From: Haloparvum sedimenti | GTDB taxonomy: Archaea; Halobacteriota; Halobacteria; Halobacteriales; Haloferacaceae | Direction: 5' to 3' | NCBI RefSeq assembly: GCF_001462205.1 | Contig: NZ_LKIR01000075.1 | Location: 1 to 40,698 of the forward strand | Length of the DNA: 40,698 nucleotides | Shown: positions 1,317-22,436 of the stretch, in pieces | Layout of the letters: every line of letters starts with the position of its first letter | Position numbering within the stretch: the stretch's first letter is position 1 | Notes under the pieces: model-generated | Database searches by the model: none | Told to the model about the DNA's origin: nothing | Seen by the model: the letters and a program-made list of their open reading frames with translations, nothing else | Made by a program: the position numbers and the translations under genes

Positions 1317-1724
1317 ATGGAATATGACCTCGACTCGGGAGCGCACTCGACGTATTCCCTGCACTACCACCTGATACTCACCACGAAGTATCAGCGAGGA
1401 GTGCTAACCGAGGAGCGAACCCAATTCATTCACGAGGTCATCAGCGGGTTCACGGACAACTACGGTGTCGAACTGACGAACCTCGACGGCGAGGACGACC
1501 ACGTACACATCCTTTTCCGAGCGAAGCCAACGACAGACCTCGTGAAGTTCATCAACACGGTCAAGGGCGCGACCGCCCGCCGTATCCGCAATGAGTACGC
1601 GGACGAACTGAAGACCGAACTGTGGGGCGACTCATTCTGGAACGATTCGTACTGCCTCATCTCGACGGGGCAGGTGTCGCTGGATATGCTGAAACAGTAC
1701 GTCGAAGACCAGCGGGAGAGCTGA
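1317..1724 (+). CDS. tnpA: IS200/IS605 transposase TnpA (Y1 HUH family)
   Basis: This 135-residue protein has the full length of IS200-type TnpA. The HUH metal-binding motif is H62-V-H64 (DHVHILF) and the catalytic tyrosine is most likely Y128 in the C-terminal helix (KQYVEDQ). It nicks and rejoins single-stranded element ends, acting as a dimer. A purine-rich AGAGGA sits about 7 nt before the ATG, and an AT-rich TATA-like stretch lies at 1295-1306. The stop codon overlaps the ATG of tnpB by one base, implying translational coupling. No frameshift or missing residue is seen, so it may be active. Confidence 0.93.
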   Translation: MEYDLDSGAHSTYSLHYHLILTTKYQRGVLTEERTQFIHEVISGFTDNYGVELTNLDGEDDHVHILFRAKPTTDLVKFINTVKGATARRIRNEYADELKTELWGDSFWNDSYCLISTGQVSLDMLKQYVEDQRES

Positions 1725-2941
1725 TGTACTACACCTACAAGTACCGTCTCAAGCCGTCCGACGCCCACCGCGAGGAATTGGACCGCCACCGAGACATTTG
1801 TAGGCAACTGTACAACCACACGCTCTACCGTCTCAACGAGTACCAAGACGAACACGGCGAACTGCCGTCTATGACCACCCTCCGGTCGGAACTTCCCGAC
1901 CTCAAGGAGTGGTGGGACGGTCTCTCGGACGTGTACTCGAAAGTTCTCCAAACCGTCGTGGAACGCCTGTTCGACAACCTCAAAGGACTCTCGGCGCTCA
2001 AGAAGAACGGCTACGACATCGGTCAACTCAAGTGGAAGCCGCCACGGGAGTTCCGCAGTTTCACGTACAGTCAGTCCGGCTTCAAGCTCGACAAGAAGGG
2101 CGGTCAGACTGTCCTGTCGCTCTCGAAACTCGCGGATATTCCGATCCGGCTTCACCGCGCCATCCCCGACAATGCGACGCTCAAGCAAGTCACGGTCAAG
2201 AAGGAACCGACGGGCAAATGGTTCGCCACGTTCGGCGTCCAAATGGAACGTGAGGTACCCGAACCGCCTGAGAATCCCGAGAAATGCGTCGGCATCGACG
2301 TAGGGATTCTCAAGTACGCTCACGACACGGATGGAACCGCCGTGGGATCGCTCGATCTCTCCGACGAGCGTGAACGATTGGAGCGCGAGCAGCAGAAGCT
2401 CTCGCGGAAGCAACACGGGTCAAACAACTACGAGAAGCAACGACGACGCGTTGCGGAATGTCACGCAGATATCCGACGGAAACGCCGCGACTTCTTGCAT
2501 AAACTCTCGGCGTACTACGCTCGGAAGTACGACCTTGTGGCGGTCGAAGATCTGAACGTGAAGGGGATGATGGAGTCACCGTCGAACAGCCGCAACATGG
2601 CGTCTGCCGCGTGGCAGACGTTCCTCTCGTTGCTCGAATACAAGTGTGAGCGCGAGGGGACGCACCTCGTGGCGGTCAACCCGAGAGGGACGACCAAGGA
2701 GTGTGCGTCCTGCGGCGTCTCGACGGAGAAACCGTTGTGGGTCCGTGAACACTCCTGTCCTGCCTGCGATTTCGAGGCGGACAGGGACGCGAACGCGGCA
2801 TGGAACATTCTTTCTCGTGGCCTCGAAGACGTAGGAGTGGGATACTCCGAATCAACGCCTGTGGAGACTGCGCTCCCTGTGGATACGCCTGTATCTGCAA
2901 AGCGCGTCGTGGAAGCAGGAAGCCCTACCCTCAAGGAATGA
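1724..2941 (+). CDS. tnpB: TnpB, RNA-guided RuvC nuclease of the IS200/IS605 element
   Basis: The 405-residue protein starts at the ATG overlapping the tnpA stop, giving the family N-terminus MYYTYKYRLKP. RuvC residues are D192 (GIDVGI), E275 (AVEDLNV) and D355 (ADRDANAAWNI). The zinc ribbon is C327/C330 and C345/C348. TnpB proteins are known to bind an RNA made from the 3' end of their own gene and element, and to cut DNA matching the flank-derived guide, helping the element persist. All catalytic positions are intact. The last codons lie inside the right-end hairpin, so the coding region probably overlaps its own guide RNA. Confidence 0.95.
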   Translation: MYYTYKYRLKPSDAHREELDRHRDICRQLYNHTLYRLNEYQDEHGELPSMTTLRSELPDLKEWWDGLSDVYSKVLQTVVERLFDNLKGLSALKKNGYDIGQLKWKPPREFRSFTYSQSGFKLDKKGGQTVLSLSKLADIPIRLHRAIPDNATLKQVTVKKEPTGKWFATFGVQMEREVPEPPENPEKCVGIDVGILKYAHDTDGTAVGSLDLSDERERLEREQQKLSRKQHGSNNYEKQRRRVAECHADIRRKRRDFLHKLSAYYARKYDLVAVEDLNVKGMMESPSNSRNMASAAWQTFLSLLEYKCEREGTHLVAVNPRGTTKECASCGVSTEKPLWVREHSCPACDFEADRDANAAWNILSRGLEDVGVGYSESTPVETALPVDTPVSAKRVVEAGSPTLKE

Positions 2942-8791: not shown

Positions 8792-10087
8792 ATGAGCACT
8801 GACGACGACATCGACACGCCACCCGACGACGAGGAGCGGCACAGGCGACTCCTCGACGAGACGGACTACGACACGGACCTCGGGCTGGAGCTCGCGCGGG
8901 ACGCTCAGCGCGTCACCGCCGGCGAGCTGAGCGAGGCCGCGTTCTACCGGCGCTACCACGACCGGATCGTCGAGGAGTTCGAGATGGACGACCGCGAGAT
9001 CGACCTTCCCGACCCCGACGCGCTCGCCGCGGGCGAGGGGGGCGACGGCGGCGTCGGCGACGGGAGCGGCGACGCCGGCGGCTTTCTCGACCGCCTCGGG
9101 GACGCGCTCGAGGGTTTCGACCCCGACGACGGGGAGTCCCGGCGCTCCGTGATGAAGAAGGGGGCCGCCGCGGGCGCGCTCGCACTCGGCGGGCTCGGAA
9201 GCACCGGCGGCGCCGGCCCCGGCGACGGCACCGCGGCCGGCGCCGCGGGGTCCGGCGAGGAGGGCGACGGCACCCGCTGGGGGATGACGATCAACCTCAA
9301 CAACTGCGACGGCTGCCTCGCCTGCATGGTCGCCTGCGACCAGGAGCACAACCTCTCGCGCGGCGCCAACTGGATGTACGTCTTCGCCTTCGAGGACGAG
9401 AATCAGGGCGAGGAGACGAACTTCCTCCCGCGCACCTGTCAGCACTGCACGGACTCGCCGTGTACGAAGGTGTGTCCGGTCGGCGCCCGCCACACGCGCG
9501 AGGAGGACGGGCTCGTGCTGACGGACTACGACATCTGCATCGGCTGCCGCTACTGCGAGGTGTCGTGTCCCTACGGCGTCAACTACTTCCAGTGGGGCGA
9601 GCCCGACGTGCCGGAGTCGGAGATCGACGACGACCACCAGATCGACGACCGGGGCCGGTGGGTCGGCTCCCGGCCGCCCGAGGGCGTCATGGGCAAGTGC
9701 ACCTTCTGCGTCGACAGACAGGACGGCCAGATGGGCGAGGAGAAGATCGGCACCACCGCCTGCGAGGAGGCGTGCACGATGGACGCCATCCACTTCGGCG
9801 ACCTGAACGACCCGGAGAGCCCGCCGAACCGGCACCTCCGGGAGTACCGCGAGTCGCAGGAGAACGACCGCTCCGACTACCCGAACCGGAAGGAGCACAC
9901 CGTCTCCACGTTCCAGCTGCTGGAGGAGCGCGGCACCGACCCCAACGTCACCTTCGTCGGCAACGCGCCCTCGCAGGACGCCCGGCAGGTCGACGGGCCC
10001 GTCACCTACGAGGAGATGGGCCTGACCGATAACCGCAAGGAGGTGCTCGATCAGGGGGCCGAGGCCGCGGGAGGTGAGACGGCGTGA
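8792..10087 (+). CDS. Four-cluster ferredoxin subunit of a molybdoenzyme-type redox complex (NrfC/PsrB/DmsB-like)
   Basis: The 431-residue protein transfers electrons between a catalytic subunit and a membrane quinone subunit. Sixteen cysteines sit in four groups: C172/175/178/182, C216/219/224/228, C249/252/255/259 and C303/306/324/328, as expected for four [4Fe-4S] clusters. The first 110 residues are an extra acidic domain. They are followed by ESRRSVMKKGAAAGALALGG, which looks like a twin-arginine signal at residues 115-135, well inside the protein. ATG 8792 is used; GTG 8726 would add 22 residues of unconvincing sequence. The stop overlaps the next gene by 4 bp. No molybdopterin catalytic subunit is encoded nearby. 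Confidence 0.9.
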   Translation: MSTDDDIDTPPDDEERHRRLLDETDYDTDLGLELARDAQRVTAGELSEAAFYRRYHDRIVEEFEMDDREIDLPDPDALAAGEGGDGGVGDGSGDAGGFLDRLGDALEGFDPDDGESRRSVMKKGAAAGALALGGLGSTGGAGPGDGTAAGAAGSGEEGDGTRWGMTINLNNCDGCLACMVACDQEHNLSRGANWMYVFAFEDENQGEETNFLPRTCQHCTDSPCTKVCPVGARHTREEDGLVLTDYDICIGCRYCEVSCPYGVNYFQWGEPDVPESEIDDDHQIDDRGRWVGSRPPEGVMGKCTFCVDRQDGQMGEEKIGTTACEEACTMDAIHFGDLNDPESPPNRHLREYRESQENDRSDYPNRKEHTVSTFQLLEERGTDPNVTFVGNAPSQDARQVDGPVTYEEMGLTDNRKEVLDQGAEAAGGETA

Positions 10088-11406
10088 GCGTCGACGTGAC
10101 CGGCGTCGACCGCGACACGCTCGTCCGGCCGATCCGGACGGTCTCGACGCGCTACCTCGCGGCGCTGTCCGTGGCGCTCGGCATGATCGGCGTGTGGCTG
10201 TTCTTCTACCTCCAACAGCTCCGGCACGGCCTGATCGTCACGAACCTCGCCGACTGGGGTTCCGGCGGCGGCGTGCCGTGGGGGCTCTACATCGGCGCGT
10301 TCATCTGGTGGGTCGGCATCGCCCACGGCGGGATCATCCTGTCGGCCGCGGTCCGGCTGCTCGGGATGGACACCTACCAGCCCGTCGCGCGGCTCGCCGA
10401 GCTGTTGACGATCGCGGCGCTGACCTGCGCGGGGATCTTCATCCTGATCCACGTCGGCCGGCCGGACCGACTCGTGACGAGCGTCATCCCGGCGTGGCCG
10501 ACCCGGGTCCAGTGGTCGCCGCTGATGTGGGACGTGACGGTGATCACCGCGTACTTCGTGCTGACCGCGACGTACCTCGGGCTGACGATCCGGTACGACC
10601 TCCACCGGCTCCGCAACCGGCTGCCGAACCGGCTGGACCCGATCTACGACGTCCTCCTCGTCGGCTACTCCGAGACCGAGGACGCGGTCGTCGAGCGGAT
10701 GGTCTGGTGGATCGCGTTCGCGATCATCATCATGGCTCCCCTGTTGCTCCACGGCGGCGTGATCCCGTGGCTGTTCGCGCTGCTGCCATCGATGGCGGGC
10801 TGGGCCGGCGGGGTGCAGGGGCCGTCGTTCCTCTCCATCGCGCTCACCTCCGCGGTGAGCGGGATCATCATCGTCGCGGCCGCGTTCCGGTACGCGTACG
10901 GCTGGGCGGAGCTGATCCCGGAGGCCGTCTTCCGCGGGCTCGGGCAGTGGCTCGGCTTCTTCAGCCTGCTGTTCCTGTGGCTGCAGCTCCAGCAGGTGAT
11001 CACGGGGATCTTCGCGGCGCCGACGACGCTCCAGCACGCGACCGAGGTGAAGATCGCGACGCCGCTCTACTGGGTCGCGATCGGCGTCGTCGCGCTCGCG
11101 ATGCTCTACGTCTTCGCGGCGTCGCTGCGCCCCTCGCTGTTCAGCCTCCCGCTGCTCGTCGCGCTCTCGGTCGGCGTGCTCGCCGGGACGCTGATCGAGA
11201 AGGTGCTGTTCGTCGTGGAGGGGCTGATGCACGCGCACTTCGACCTCTACGCCGGCGTTCCCGGCGCGTACACCCCCTCGGCGGTCGAGCTGTCGGCGCT
11301 CGTCGGGACGGTGGGGATCGTGGTGCTGTTCTTCCTCGTCGTCTCGAAGGTGATCCCGGTCGTGGAGCTCCACGCCATCGAGGACCACGGGGAGGTGGAA
11401 GGATGA
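10084..11406 (+). CDS. NrfD/PsrC-family integral membrane subunit
   Basis: The 440-residue protein has about nine or ten transmembrane helices and starts at GTG 10084 inside the end of the iron-sulfur gene (4-bp overlap). The loop GGGVPWGLYIGAFIWWVG and the regularly spaced helices fit the NrfD/PsrC family. These proteins anchor the ferredoxin subunit and exchange electrons with menaquinol. The stop overlaps the next start by 4 bp. The three genes are clearly one operon. Whether it oxidises or reduces quinone cannot be read from sequence. Confidence 0.9.
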   Translation: MSVDVTGVDRDTLVRPIRTVSTRYLAALSVALGMIGVWLFFYLQQLRHGLIVTNLADWGSGGGVPWGLYIGAFIWWVGIAHGGIILSAAVRLLGMDTYQPVARLAELLTIAALTCAGIFILIHVGRPDRLVTSVIPAWPTRVQWSPLMWDVTVITAYFVLTATYLGLTIRYDLHRLRNRLPNRLDPIYDVLLVGYSETEDAVVERMVWWIAFAIIIMAPLLLHGGVIPWLFALLPSMAGWAGGVQGPSFLSIALTSAVSGIIIVAAAFRYAYGWAELIPEAVFRGLGQWLGFFSLLFLWLQLQQVITGIFAAPTTLQHATEVKIATPLYWVAIGVVALAMLYVFAASLRPSLFSLPLLVALSVGVLAGTLIEKVLFVVEGLMHAHFDLYAGVPGAYTPSAVELSALVGTVGIVVLFFLVVSKVIPVVELHAIEDHGEVEG

Positions 11407-11708
11407 CGGCTGCGCCGGCCGCCCTCCCGCCCCTCCTCGCGCTGGCGTCGCTCTCCGCGCCCCTGCCGGCGCTCCCCCTGCTCGCCGGCTCGGCCGACTA
11501 CACGCTCCCGTTCGTCGGCCCGGGGACGTACCTGATCTTCGGCATCGTCCTCCTGCCGGTGTACGTCATGGTCGGCGCGTGGTTCCTCGGCGACCCGAGC
11601 GACCGGTTCGCGAACCTGCTCGGCGTGGGCTACCTCGCCGGCCTGACCACCGTGCTGTGGGGGAGCCTGCTGGTGGCGACGCTGGTCATCGGGGCGGTGT
11701 TCTTCTGA
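11403..11708 (+). CDS. Small membrane protein, third gene of the NrfD operon
   Basis: The 101-residue protein has a hydrophobic Ala/Leu/Pro-rich N-terminus and two strong transmembrane helices (YLIFGIVLLPVYVMVGAWFL and the C-terminal segment ending VIGAVFF). A short DPSDRFANLLG loop lies between them. It overlaps the NrfD gene by 4 bp, so it is probably a structural subunit or assembly helper of that complex. I do not recognise the family. The gene ends directly with no hydrophilic tail. Confidence 0.75.
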   Translation: MTAAPAALPPLLALASLSAPLPALPLLAGSADYTLPFVGPGTYLIFGIVLLPVYVMVGAWFLGDPSDRFANLLGVGYLAGLTTVLWGSLLVATLVIGAVFF

Positions 11709-11854: not shown

Positions 11855-13027
11855 ATGACCATCACCGAAGCAGAACTGACCGACCGGCTCCGAGCGGTAG
11901 CGGACCCGACGAACGACGACGACATCGTCTCGATGGGGCTCGTCAACGACGTGACCGTCAGCGACGGCACCGCCGAGGTCTCGCTGGCGTTCAACGCGCC
12001 CTGCGCCCCGGCGGAGATCGAGATCGGCGACCGCGTCCGCGAAGTCGTCGCGGACGCCGGCCTCGAACCGGACCTGAGCGCCAGTTTCGGCGAGGCGCAC
12101 GGCTTCGACCGGAGCGTACTGCCCGGCGTCAGAAACGTGATTGCGGTCGCGTCGGGCAAGGGCGGCGTCGGCAAGACGACCGTCGCCGCGAACCTCGCGG
12201 CCGGGCTGGACGAGCGCGGCGCCCGCGTCGGCATCCTCGACGCGGACGTGCACGGGCCGAACGTCCCCCGGCTGCTTCCCACCGAGAACGAACCGGGGGT
12301 GATGCCCGACGGCGACATCGTCCCGCCGCGCTCCGACGGGGTGCTCGTGATGAGCGCCCACCACATGCTCCCGGGCGACGACCAGCCGGCCGTCCTCCGC
12401 GGGCCGATGGTGAACAACGTGATGATGAAGTTCGTCAACGAGGTGGAGTGGGGACAGCTCGACTACCTGATCGTCGACCTCCCGCCGGGAACGGGCGACG
12501 CCTCGCTGAACCTGCTCCAGTCGCTGCCCGTCGCCGGCGTCGTCATCGTCACGACGCCACAGGAGATGGCGGTCGCGGACGCCCGCAAGGGGCTTCGGCT
12601 GTTCGACGACCACGACGCGCCCGTGCTCGGCGTCGTCGAGAACATGGCCGCGTTCCGGTGCCCCGACTGCGGCGACACCCACGAGGTGTTCGGCGAGGGC
12701 GGCGCGGCGTCGATCCGCGACGACTACGGCGTCCCCGTGCTCTCGCGGATCCCCGTCCACCCGGACTTCGACAGCGAAGGGGCCGAGGGGCCGACCGTCC
12801 GCGACGACGACAGCGACGTGCAGGACGACCTGTTCGCCCTCGTCGACGACGTGGCCGATCGCGTCGGAACGGTGACCCGCCGAAAGGTCGCGGAGCGGGT
12901 CGGGGACTGGAACCCCGAGGGCAGCGAGGAACGCGCCGCCGAACGCGGCGGTTCCGACGACACCACCGGCGAGAAGCACGCGGCCGACGGCGGCGAGGAC
13001 CCGTCGCGCTGCTCCTGCTCGGAGTGA
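11855..13027 (+). CDS. mrp: Mrp/ApbC-family P-loop ATPase, iron-sulfur cluster carrier
   Basis: The 390-residue protein has an N-terminal MIP18/DUF59 domain (about residues 5-80). The ParA/MinD-type ATPase begins at residue 94 with deviant Walker A GKGGVGKTT (101-109). The CxxC pair that bridges an Fe-S cluster in this family is C269-P-D-C272. The C-terminal 60 residues are hydrophilic and end in CSCSE, giving two more cysteines that could take part in cluster binding. The protein is expected to bind and transfer [4Fe-4S] clusters in the cytoplasm. It follows the Fe-S redox operon by 146 bp on the same strand. Confidence 0.93.
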   Translation: MTITEAELTDRLRAVADPTNDDDIVSMGLVNDVTVSDGTAEVSLAFNAPCAPAEIEIGDRVREVVADAGLEPDLSASFGEAHGFDRSVLPGVRNVIAVASGKGGVGKTTVAANLAAGLDERGARVGILDADVHGPNVPRLLPTENEPGVMPDGDIVPPRSDGVLVMSAHHMLPGDDQPAVLRGPMVNNVMMKFVNEVEWGQLDYLIVDLPPGTGDASLNLLQSLPVAGVVIVTTPQEMAVADARKGLRLFDDHDAPVLGVVENMAAFRCPDCGDTHEVFGEGGAASIRDDYGVPVLSRIPVHPDFDSEGAEGPTVRDDDSDVQDDLFALVDDVADRVGTVTRRKVAERVGDWNPEGSEERAAERGGSDDTTGEKHAADGGEDPSRCSCSE

Positions 13028-13135: not shown

Positions 13136-14518
13136 ATGGCGGCGCTCGAGCGTGTGCACATGGGCGCGACACGATTCACGACACTCCTGACGGCGAGCGT
13201 CGTCGGCACGTACCTCGTTCTCGCTCTCGGCGCGACGACCGCGACGGCGGGGGAAGCGGCGACGCCCGGGCCGCTCGCGTGGGTCGCGAGGGGCCACTAC
13301 GCGCTCGCGGCCGCGGTCTGGCTGCTGGTCGCCGCGACCGCCGCCTCCGCGTGGCGCGATGAGCGCGCGGCGGGCGTCCGTGCGGGGCTCGCGCTGGCGA
13401 CGGTCGGCGTCCCGGTCCAGGGGGTGGTCGGCATGGCGGGACGCGTCGAAGGCTTCGACGGCGCGTGGTGGGGTATCGGCGTCGGAGGGGTCCACCTCTT
13501 CGGCGGCGTCGCGGCGTTCGCCGTGCTGCTCGTCGTGCTGGTCCGACACCTCGACGCGACGGTCGCCGAAGGGGACGCGACGGCGGAGAACGTGCCGACC
13601 GGGACCGGTTCCCGGCCGCCGCCGACCGACGCGTCCGCTCCGGACGGGCCCGCGGACCGCCTCCGCGCGTACCTCGCGCTGACGAAGCCGCGGCTGATGT
13701 GGCTGCTCTGTCTGCTCGCGCTCGCGGGGATGGCGCTGGCGGCGGCCACGGGCGCGGCGGTCGACGGCGTCACCGTGGTCGCGACGCTGGCCGGCGGCGT
13801 GCTCGCGGTCGGTGCGGCCGGGACGTTCAACCACCTGTTCGAGCGCGAGCGGGACCGGAAGATGGCCCGGACCGCCGACAGGCCGGTCGCGACGGCGGCG
13901 GTGCCGCCGCGGCGCGCGGCCGCGTTCGGGCTCGGGCTCGCCGCGGCGTCGATGACGCTGCTGTGGACCGTCGTCACCCCCCTCGCGACGCTGTTGACCG
14001 CCGCCGCGATCGGCTACTACGCCGTGGTGTACACCGTCCTGCTGAAACCGACGACGCGCTGGAACACCGCCGTCGGCGGCGGGTCGGGCGCGCTCCCGGC
14101 GCTCATCGGCTGGGCCGCGGTGACGGGCGGGATCGGGCTCCCTGCCGTCCTGCTGGCGGGCGTCGTGGTGCTGTGGACGCCCGCGCACTTCTACAACTTC
14201 GCCATCGCGCACCGCGAGGAGTACGCCAGCGCCGACTACCCGATGCTCCCGGTCGTCGCCGGAGTCCGGGCGACGCGCCGGCGCACGTGCTACTGGCTCG
14301 GAGCGACGCTCGTCGCGGCGGTCGCGCTCGGCGTCGTAGCGGAGTTTGGCGCGCTCTACGCCGTGACGACCGCGGGCGCCGGGGGCGTCTTCCTCGGGTC
14401 GCTCGTCCGACAGTACGACCGAGGGACGGACGCGGCCGCCCTCCGGACCTTCTACGCGTCGAACGCCTACCTCGGGCTGCTGCTCGCGGCGGTCGTCGCC
14501 GAAGCGGTGGTGGTCTGA
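13136..14518 (+). CDS. ctaB: Heme O synthase with N-terminal CtaA-like half (protoheme IX farnesyltransferase)
   Basis: The protein is 460 residues from ATG 13136; ATG 13160 (MGATRFTTLL) is an equally good start. The first 160 residues have four helices and paired histidines (GHYALAAAVW, H54; GGVHLFGG, H120), as in half of a CtaA/Cox15 heme A synthase. A hydrophilic linker leads to a UbiA prenyltransferase from about residue 170. The UbiA signatures are NHLFERERDRKMARTADRP and LLKPTTRWNTAVGGGSGALP. It makes heme O for terminal oxidases. Fusion of a CtaA-like half to CtaB is known in haloarchaea. The stop abuts the next gene. Confidence 0.92.
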   Translation: MAALERVHMGATRFTTLLTASVVGTYLVLALGATTATAGEAATPGPLAWVARGHYALAAAVWLLVAATAASAWRDERAAGVRAGLALATVGVPVQGVVGMAGRVEGFDGAWWGIGVGGVHLFGGVAAFAVLLVVLVRHLDATVAEGDATAENVPTGTGSRPPPTDASAPDGPADRLRAYLALTKPRLMWLLCLLALAGMALAAATGAAVDGVTVVATLAGGVLAVGAAGTFNHLFERERDRKMARTADRPVATAAVPPRRAAAFGLGLAAASMTLLWTVVTPLATLLTAAAIGYYAVVYTVLLKPTTRWNTAVGGGSGALPALIGWAAVTGGIGLPAVLLAGVVVLWTPAHFYNFAIAHREEYASADYPMLPVVAGVRATRRRTCYWLGATLVAAVALGVVAEFGALYAVTTAGAGGVFLGSLVRQYDRGTDAAALRTFYASNAYLGLLLAAVVAEAVVV

Positions 14519-21293: not shown

Positions 21294-22436
21294 CTACAGC
21301 TCGTAGCCCGCGTAGTCCATCAGCTGGGCGAAGATGTCCGAGTCCATCGCCTCCTCGTAGACGATGCCACCGACCATCCCGCCGGGGTAGCTGTTCCCGT
21401 TCATCGCGTGGCTCACCTTGTGGCAGTGGAGCAGGTAGATCCCGGGGTCGGCGTCGGCCTCGAACTCGATGGTCTTGCGCTCGGCCGGCGCGATGTTGAC
21501 CACGTCCTGGTCGTACTGGGCGACCTCCGGGATCGGCGAGCCGTCCTTCTCGACCACCTTGAACCGGTGGTTGTGGGTGTGGAGCGGATGGCTCATGTAG
21601 CCGTTGTTGGCGAAGTGGACGCGGACGGTGTCACCCTGCGAGACGATGATCGGCGAGCCGTCCTCGGGGTGGAGCGTCCGCGGCGCCGACCGGCCGTTGA
21701 TGGTGAACGTGTCCGGGCTCCGGTCGCGGGCGCTGTAGGAGACGTCCTCGCCAGCGAACTGGCGGTTGAGCCGGGAGTCCCAGTCTTTCACCGTCATGAA
21801 CAGCTCCTGATCGGCCGGCTCGTACCCCTCGGGGTCGACCCGGAAGAAGCCGTACATCCCCATGTCGATGTGGCGGTGGGTCTGGTAGTGGCAGTGGTAG
21901 AGGTGCGTACCGGGGACGTTCGCGGGGATCTCGTAGGTGTGGCTCTCCCCGGGCGCGACCGTGATCCCGGTGGTCGTCGGGACGCCGTCGTTCTCCCAGG
22001 TCTTGCTGACGCCGTGGAAGTGGACCGTATGAGGCATGTCGGCCTCGGTGTTGTCGAGCGTCACCTCGATGTCCTCGCCCTCGGTCGTTCGGAGGACCGG
22101 ACCGGGTACGCTCGGCGCGCGGTCGTCGGCCTGCCACGCCCACACGCGGGGCAGCTCGACCGGCCCACCCATCGCGTCACCGGGGTGAACGGGGAGCCGC
22201 GAGGTGACCGACCGGAGCGTCACCTGGTTGTTCTGCTCCGGGAGGTCGACGACCTGCGGCGCCGCGGCCGCGGGGAGGTCCGCGTCCCCTTCGGCCTGCG
22301 CGACGCCGTCCCCGTCCGAGGTCCCGTTCCGGGGCGCGGCACACCCCGCAAGCCCCAGAACGCCCGCCGATCCCGTCGCACGTACGAAATCCCGCCGTGA
22401 GAGCTCCGTCCCGGGAGCACCGATCTGGTTCGTCAT
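21294..22436 (-). CDS. Two-domain multicopper oxidase, Tat-exported lipoprotein
   Basis: The 380-residue protein has a twin-arginine signal ([21 protein letters not shown]) ending in lipobox Cys32, so it is probably anchored outside the membrane. Cupredoxin domain 1 spans about residues 60-200 and domain 2 about 210-360. Copper motifs are VHFHG (139-142), [12 protein letters not shown] (181-192), HPLHTHNH (283-290) and HCHKVSHAM (337-345). Both domains contain an HCH type-1-like site, which points to the rarer two-domain subclass with type-1 copper in each domain. Substrate is unknown; laccase-like oxidation or nitrite chemistry are possible. Confidence 0.9.

Follow-up and report, generated by a model that had tools for sequence, protein, structure and literature searches.

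The 40,698-nucleotide contig NZ_LKIR01000075.1 of Haloparvum sedimenti, analyzed here over its full length (the window) and representing one entire contig of G000, a haloarchaeal genome of 3.24 Mb, carries three overlapping genes for an iron-sulfur (FeS) subunit (P0001), an NrfD-type membrane subunit (P0002), and a small membrane protein (P0003), together called the triad. We propose that the triad is a menaquinol:halocyanin oxidoreductase, free of heme and molybdenum, that operates in the manner of alternative complex III and replaces cytochrome bc where the latter is lacking, a reading to which we assign a probability of about 0.64. A little less firmly, we also lean toward the view that triads of this type are the missing complex III of aerobic haloarchaea without cytochrome bc (67 of 69 genomes), that they form an optional second complex III elsewhere, including in the organism of the window, and that they descended from a molybdoenzyme by loss of its catalytic subunit. 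According to a passage of PMC8305020, complex III is not encoded in roughly one-third of haloarchaea, above all in Natrialbales, and electron flow there is unresolved. The same gap, from quinol to halocyanin without bc1, is noted for three species in part of a paper on Natrialba magadii (PMC3403918), and natronoarchaea are described in a section of PMC6176080 as also lacking homologues of alternative complex III. Because relatives of the triad occur in nearly all of the complex III-less haloarchaea examined, it is a strong candidate for the quinone-halocyanin link, one that is named, deletable, and backed by a nearly one-to-one genome pattern. No paper assigning these genes as complex III was found in a search limited to open-licence literature.

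The genome pattern was drawn from 292 haloarchaeal genomes of the class, of which 144 matched an NrfD profile at E ≤ 1e-10 and 96 at E < 1e-100; the stricter match defines the presence of a triad. Cytochrome b (PF13631) was found in 223 of the 292 genomes and was absent from 69. Sorted by both markers, 67 genomes have the triad only, 29 have both, 2 have neither, and 194 of the 196 triad-negative genomes have cytochrome b (Fisher P = 5e-40, uncorrected for kinship). A recheck with PF00033 (E ≤ 0.01) was blank in all 69 cytochrome b-negative genomes and gave matches in 4/4 positives. Requiring a FeS match at E ≤ 1e-60 in addition to the NrfD match, with six FeS candidates scored per genome only, changed these counts to 63/29/6/194 (P = 5e-34). 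Such a FeS match was present in 92 of the 96 triad genomes; of the four genomes left out, three (G034, G091, and G092) do carry the cassette described below on reading, and in the fourth (G285) a contig end interrupts it. Adjacency of the FeS and NrfD genes was seen in 66 of the 67 triad-only genomes (including G005, G028, G129, and G285), the exception being G096, of whose three NrfD places one was read. Heme-copper oxidase (PF00115, E ≤ 1e-20) was found in 66 of the 69 cytochrome b-negative genomes and not in G007, G093, or G129. Since G007 and G093 are the two genomes with neither cytochrome b nor triad, every sampled cytochrome b-negative genome with a heme-copper oxidase has the triad. 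By family, and in the same order as above, the counts were 56/8/0/10 in f4 (Natrialbaceae-like) and 8/5/0/45 in f3. Cytochrome b is absent in sixteen f4 genera and two f3 genera, as well as in f10 and f11, and genus g35 is divided (five genomes with the triad only, one with both, and one with cytochrome b only).

The three genes are open in frame and are joined by 4-bp overlaps, GTGA (10084-10087) and ATGA (11403-11406), as an earlier, sequence-only reading of the window had described. That reading had also named a four-cluster ferredoxin subunit, an NrfD-like quinone subunit, and a two-helix protein of no known family, and all three descriptions hold: P0001 has 16 cysteines arranged in four groups, with 4Fe-4S domains and an N-terminal Ferredoxin_N in a Pfam search; P0002 matches NrfD PF03916; and the conserved part of P0003 has two hydrophobic stretches, with no family match in searches of Pfam, NCBIfam, and PDB. 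A PF03916 membrane subunit paired with a four-cluster FeS subunit makes this an NrfD/PsrC-family quinone module (NrfCD). The arginine pair R117-R118 of P0001, which we take to be a twin-arginine translocation (Tat) motif, is kept in 29/29 aligned homologues. An Mrp/ApbC ATPase gene starts 146 bp downstream of the small gene (Table 1).

Table 1. Features of the triad and its linked ATPase gene in the window
Feature	Position	Strand	Evidence
FeS subunit P0001, 431 amino acids (aa): Ferredoxin_N, putative Tat-type motif, four predicted [4Fe-4S] sites	8792..10087	+	Pfam, alignment, cysteine count
Ferredoxin_N PF16947, P0001 residues 13-69	8828..8998	+	Pfam E 1.2e-22
Twin arginines, P0001 residues 117-118, putative Tat-type signal SRRSVMKKGAAAGALALGG	9140..9145	+	Sequence, homologue alignment
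Stretch with 16 cluster-ligand cysteines, C172 to C328 of P0001	9305..9775	+	Cysteine count
NrfD/ActC-like 10-helix membrane subunit P0002, 440 aa, GTG start	10084..11406	+	PF03916, PDB profile, model
Small two-helix membrane protein P0003, 101 aa, in every counted cassette	11403..11708	+	Open reading frame, cassette count
Mrp/ApbC-type P-loop Fe-S carrier ATPase, 390 aa, cassette-linked	11855..13027	+	Domain match, cassette count

Comparisons of the membrane subunit with known structures point to alternative complex III. A search of PDB with the NrfD profile (E ≤ 0.01) matched four distinct sequences, all of them ActC of alternative complex III going by the titles of their entries (6f0k among them), and a Foldseek search with the P0002 model (10 long helices; mean predicted local distance difference test score, 80) placed four ActC chains at the top (Chloroflexus first, Roseiflexus, Flavobacterium, and entry 6f0k; template modeling scores of 0.80 to 0.83), followed by ActF chains. 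When mapped onto 6f0k_C, ActC residues His139, Ser164, and Asp169 correspond to H123, S145, and D150, which are invariant in 30/30 sequences; the roles of the quinone-site and channel residues follow the list given in a section of PMC8076601. Among the 13 ActC residues of the N-side channel, nine are identical in the NrfD profile consensus and one is changed from Ser to Thr, and among the six of the P-side channel Glu394 is kept and Arg395 is a lysine. In a passage of the same source, 42 euryarchaeal sequences named DmsC grouped with ActC and DsrP.

The triad belongs to a conserved four-gene cassette that encodes the putatively Tat-exported FeS protein, NrfD, the small protein, and the Mrp/ApbC ATPase. 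In an independent collection of 80 named loci, 56 were FeS-NrfD cassettes, and the FeS, NrfD, and small genes stand together in all 56, a co-occurrence beyond chance, with an Mrp gene within four genes in 52 of them. The remaining 24 loci are NrfD genes without an upstream FeS gene, one of which, at a contig end, keeps the small and Mrp genes. In a first draw of 40 loci, gene calls made with our own simple codon model yielded 39 with NrfD, 34 of them cassettes, and one locus (L067) was read from its open reading frames. All 34 cassettes have the small gene, 33 have Mrp, and 4 have halocyanin; the draw also held a NirK match within 10 kb in 6 (weak in L052) and a putative molybdoenzyme match somewhere in 1 locus. 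The three genes named by the sequence-only reading are kept together, but its three-gene operon was incomplete, the fourth gene having been missed, and it foresaw no link to cytochrome b, halocyanin, or nitrite reductase. Exactly two Mrp genes were present at E ≤ 1e-20 in 12/12 genomes tested, one nearest to the Mrp of the window and the other about 50% identical; in G000, the second copy lies elsewhere and is 50% identical to the cassette-linked one. The cassette-linked Mrp of G046 is the more distant copy, and the nearer copy of G020 lies 80 kb away from NrfD. The outer neighbors of the cassette differ among genera and are partly housekeeping genes in f4 genomes; a fixed host context was rejected on the basis of this variation.

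Several variants of the cassette were also observed. Genomes of f4 often have a second NrfD of the triad family without a FeS gene (L058, L060, L062, L063, and L065; 24/80 named loci) and a lone FeS gene of the triad family elsewhere (L244 to L254 and L256), which are possibly the parts of a split paralogous complex. The orphan FeS genes were considered as carriers of a catalytic partner, but the 13 fetched loci (L244 to L256) have no consistent partner. The FeS subunits of several groups contain big variable inserts between the last cysteine group and the C terminus (L071:6788-9088, where the protein has 766 aa, L059, L064, and L067:10703-12544). A divergent FeS/NrfD/small/Mrp set in G046 (L099:7015-13076) is another MopB-free variant, with a lipoprotein-like protein containing an EB_dh (heme b gamma-subunit type) domain encoded upstream; G046 also has cytochrome b.

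Gene linkage points to the acceptor side of the complex. A halocyanin gene lies one to two genes upstream of the FeS gene in 13/56 named cassettes, from at least five named genera, versus 0.25 expected (from 3 matches among 1342 other genes). A NirK gene lies within 10 kb in 12/56, versus ~0.4 expected if there are 1.3 copies per 3.8 Mb. Binomial values for both linkages are too optimistic because the loci are related. HTH_10 regulators and DUF2249 proteins accompany NirK near cassettes. In G138, which belongs to the subgroup of the window, a divergent NirK gene immediately precedes the FeS gene, and a matching gene occupies the same place in G281. A cluster of ~376-aa neighbors suspected to be NirK was checked and is not NirK. 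Halocyanin is the best candidate acceptor because it is the accepted haloarchaeal electron carrier (in passages of PMC8305020 and PMC3403918) and because its gene is directly upstream of FeS in those 13 cassettes.

In the proposed mechanism, menaquinol would be oxidized at the NrfD subunit, near the outer face, and the FeS subunit, exported by Tat, would relay electrons along its four [4Fe-4S] clusters to an extracytoplasmic one-electron carrier, most likely halocyanin. Reduced halocyanin would then supply heme-copper oxidases and, in some genomes, also copper nitrite reductase. P0003 probably serves in structure or assembly, and the Mrp ATPase, judging from its linkage, may be a dedicated loader of Fe-S clusters prior to export. 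We infer this direction of electron flow, halocyanin as the acceptor, and proton translocation, together with what the small protein and Mrp do. The complex would amount to an alternative complex III minus its cytochromes and MopB-like domain that stands in for cytochrome bc in those haloarchaea where the latter is missing.

A number of observations weigh against this proposal. At the position of ActC Asp253 the NrfD subunit has a leucine, and of the six ActC residues in the P-side channel, four are not conserved. Halocyanin adjacency occurs in a minority of cassettes and in none from the clade of the window. In that subgroup (NrfD E < 1e-200), 21/21 genomes also have cytochrome b, so the triad there would be an additional quinol-oxidizing branch, not a replacement. 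No heme-copper oxidase was found in the triad-only genome G129. Shared ancestry inflates the P value, as 56 of the 67 triad-only genomes come from family f4. Sorokin and colleagues, in a section of PMC6176080, read the heme-copper oxidases of natronoarchaea, which lack cytochrome b, as quinol oxidases, in which case complex III is not needed. NirK presence is not enriched with the triad (60/96 versus 103/196; P = 0.13). Furthermore, sequence cannot tell the direction of electron flow, and QrcABCD, which has related modules, is a quinone reductase (passage in PMC13059093).

The weight of f4 among the cytochrome b-negative genomes, combined with the quinol oxidases proposed for natronoarchaea, could mean that the cytochrome b pattern merely reflects shared ancestry, with a triad of unrelated function in species that use quinol oxidases only. 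However, the pattern recurs in two genera of f3, in f10, in f11, and inside genus g35, and no oxidase-bearing exception was seen in 69 cytochrome b-negative genomes, which makes this explanation improbable. Electrons might also flow in reverse, from an outside donor through the complex to menaquinone, as in QrcABCD. NrfD-type modules operate both ways, the best NCBIfam matches of the FeS subunit are QrcC and DsrO, and QrcCD modules can reduce menaquinone according to the same passage of PMC13059093. The complementarity with cytochrome b and the acceptor-side linkage to halocyanin and NirK nevertheless fit quinol oxidation better, and we regard reverse flow as unlikely. The NirK linkage itself, with its accompanying regulators and DUF2249 proteins and the divergent gene arrangement of G138 and G281, would be expected of a dedicated quinol dehydrogenase for denitrification that is not a general complex III. 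This linkage is real in a subset of cassettes, but 36 of the 96 triad genomes have no NirK, presence and absence are not associated, and the cytochrome b pattern would be left unexplained; denitrification as the sole role was rejected, and a dedicated function of this kind has a low probability in our estimate.

The sequence-only reading had offered two possibilities, an independent electron-transfer complex or one that recruits a catalytic subunit encoded elsewhere, and the evidence on molybdoenzymes supports the first. As that reading noted, the window contains no MopB gene, and both PF00384 places of G000 are on other contigs. By our reading of their neighbors, each has its own partners: one is NasA-like, beside MobA-like and nitrite/sulfite-reductase-like genes, and the other resembles formate dehydrogenase and has FeS and cytochrome-b-like genes to itself. 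A MopB gene is present in 262/292 genomes, but PF00384 gave zero matches at E ≤ 1 in 10/10 rechecked triad-bearing genomes, whose cassettes were seen in L040, L050, L051, L068, L222, L224, and L226 to L229. Consistent linkage to a molybdoenzyme in relatives, which the earlier reading had named as the observation that would refute it by showing a simple rearranged locus, was not found among the 56 named cassettes; MopB is nearby in two, both on deep-branching contigs. A missing or unlinked molybdoenzyme was rejected on these grounds.

Haloarchaeal FeS and NrfD paralogues do sit with MopB genes (L100 to L114). In most of them, Ferredoxin_N is a separate ~80-aa protein ahead of a MopB subunit that bears the Tat signal, the FeS subunit is not extended at its N terminus, and the next gene encodes a TorD/NarJ-type chaperone; in a third type (L110, L113, and L114), Ferredoxin_N is fused to FeS and MopB is present. 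The triad FeS protein has both Ferredoxin_N and the twin arginines itself and may therefore be exportable without a catalytic subunit. Ferredoxin_N (PF16947) accompanies Tat-exported subunits either as a stand-alone protein of ~80 aa (L100:4901-5146 and L105:5713-5949) or fused to FeS, as in P0001; instead of belonging to a ferredoxin, it may function in export or assembly. In two deep relatives (L129:417-12666 and L179:2357-11498), one of them in a Chloroflexota metagenome-assembled genome, the triad lies downstream of a type II dimethyl sulfoxide (DMSO)-reductase-family operon with alpha, beta, and chaperone genes in both and gamma in L179. Such an arrangement is compatible with a quinol dehydrogenase that supplies electrons to an exported enzyme. 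In a quick tree of 74 NrfD rows, the cassettes occupy one region, which also takes in the orphans and both deep relatives linked to type II MopB; the MopB-linked paralogues L100 to L104 fall outside it, as do the long branches L099 and L070, whose placement is uncertain. The tree agrees with a possible descent from a MopB complex, although it does not give the direction. These MopB-linked paralogues and deep relatives are what favors an iron-sulfur molybdoenzyme complex that recruits its catalytic subunit from elsewhere, but with the triad carriers that have no MopB, where this explanation is refuted for MopB, the separate partners of both MopB genes of G000, and the twin arginines on the FeS subunit itself, we consider it very improbable.

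Outside the cassette, a UbiA-family gene (13136-14518, + strand), in our reading a putative CtaB-like heme O synthase, adjoins it in the window and is not kept as a neighbor in most relatives. A multicopper oxidase with weak similarity to NirK is encoded at 21294-22436 (- strand), ~10 kb downstream of the triad, and a gene pair at 1317-2941 (+ strand) resembles, by eye, an IS200/IS605-type transposase and TnpB.

If the proposal is correct, an NrfD-FeS pair alone would suffice for the function of complex III with no heme, and the three-subunit complex would be smaller than any other known alternative to cytochrome bc. A different energy yield would have to be assigned to haloarchaea without cytochrome b, and the loss of a molybdoenzyme subunit would be tied to the birth of a respiratory complex.

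Among known systems, DsrOP of DsrMKJOP supplies the best NCBIfam matches (FeS to DsrO, 148.7 bits; NrfD to DsrP, 72.9 bits), but both scores are under the curated cutoffs (200 and 350, respectively) and no dsrMKJ-like genes were seen in the cassette. PsrABC and the haloarchaeal DmsABC-type enzymes share with the triad an NrfD subunit and a four-cluster FeS subunit, and Ferredoxin_N occurs in both settings. They differ in that the triad has neither a catalytic MopB subunit nor a TorD/NarJ-type chaperone and has its Tat-type signal and Ferredoxin_N placed on the FeS subunit. The haloarchaeal cytochrome bc1/b6f-type complex (PetABC) would resemble the triad in the proposed reaction, from menaquinol to halocyanin, but its subunits are unrelated, and the triad has no heme and no Rieske protein and is not expected to run a Q-cycle. 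In comparison with alternative complex III, the triad lacks the MopB-like half of ActB, the alignments with PDB entries falling on the C-terminal part of that protein, and by eye P0001 to P0003 contain no CxxCH motif of the ActA pentaheme or ActE monoheme cytochromes. The second NrfD (ActF) is missing from the cassette, with one NrfD match in G000 at E ≤ 1e-4, and no fifth gene is constant among the cassettes. P0003 has two hydrophobic helices, but its sequence matched neither ActD nor any further chain in PDB, and the 16 cysteines of P0001 probably hold four [4Fe-4S] clusters, versus one [3Fe-4S] and three [4Fe-4S] in alternative complex III. The likeness to alternative complex III, especially to the Chloroflexus form, lies in an ActC-like 10-helix NrfD, a FeS subunit resembling the ferredoxin part of ActB and located on the exported side, the residues of the menaquinol site, and a blue copper protein as the probable acceptor, a role given to auracyanin, for the phototrophic alternative complex III, in the title of a work cited by PMC10100899.

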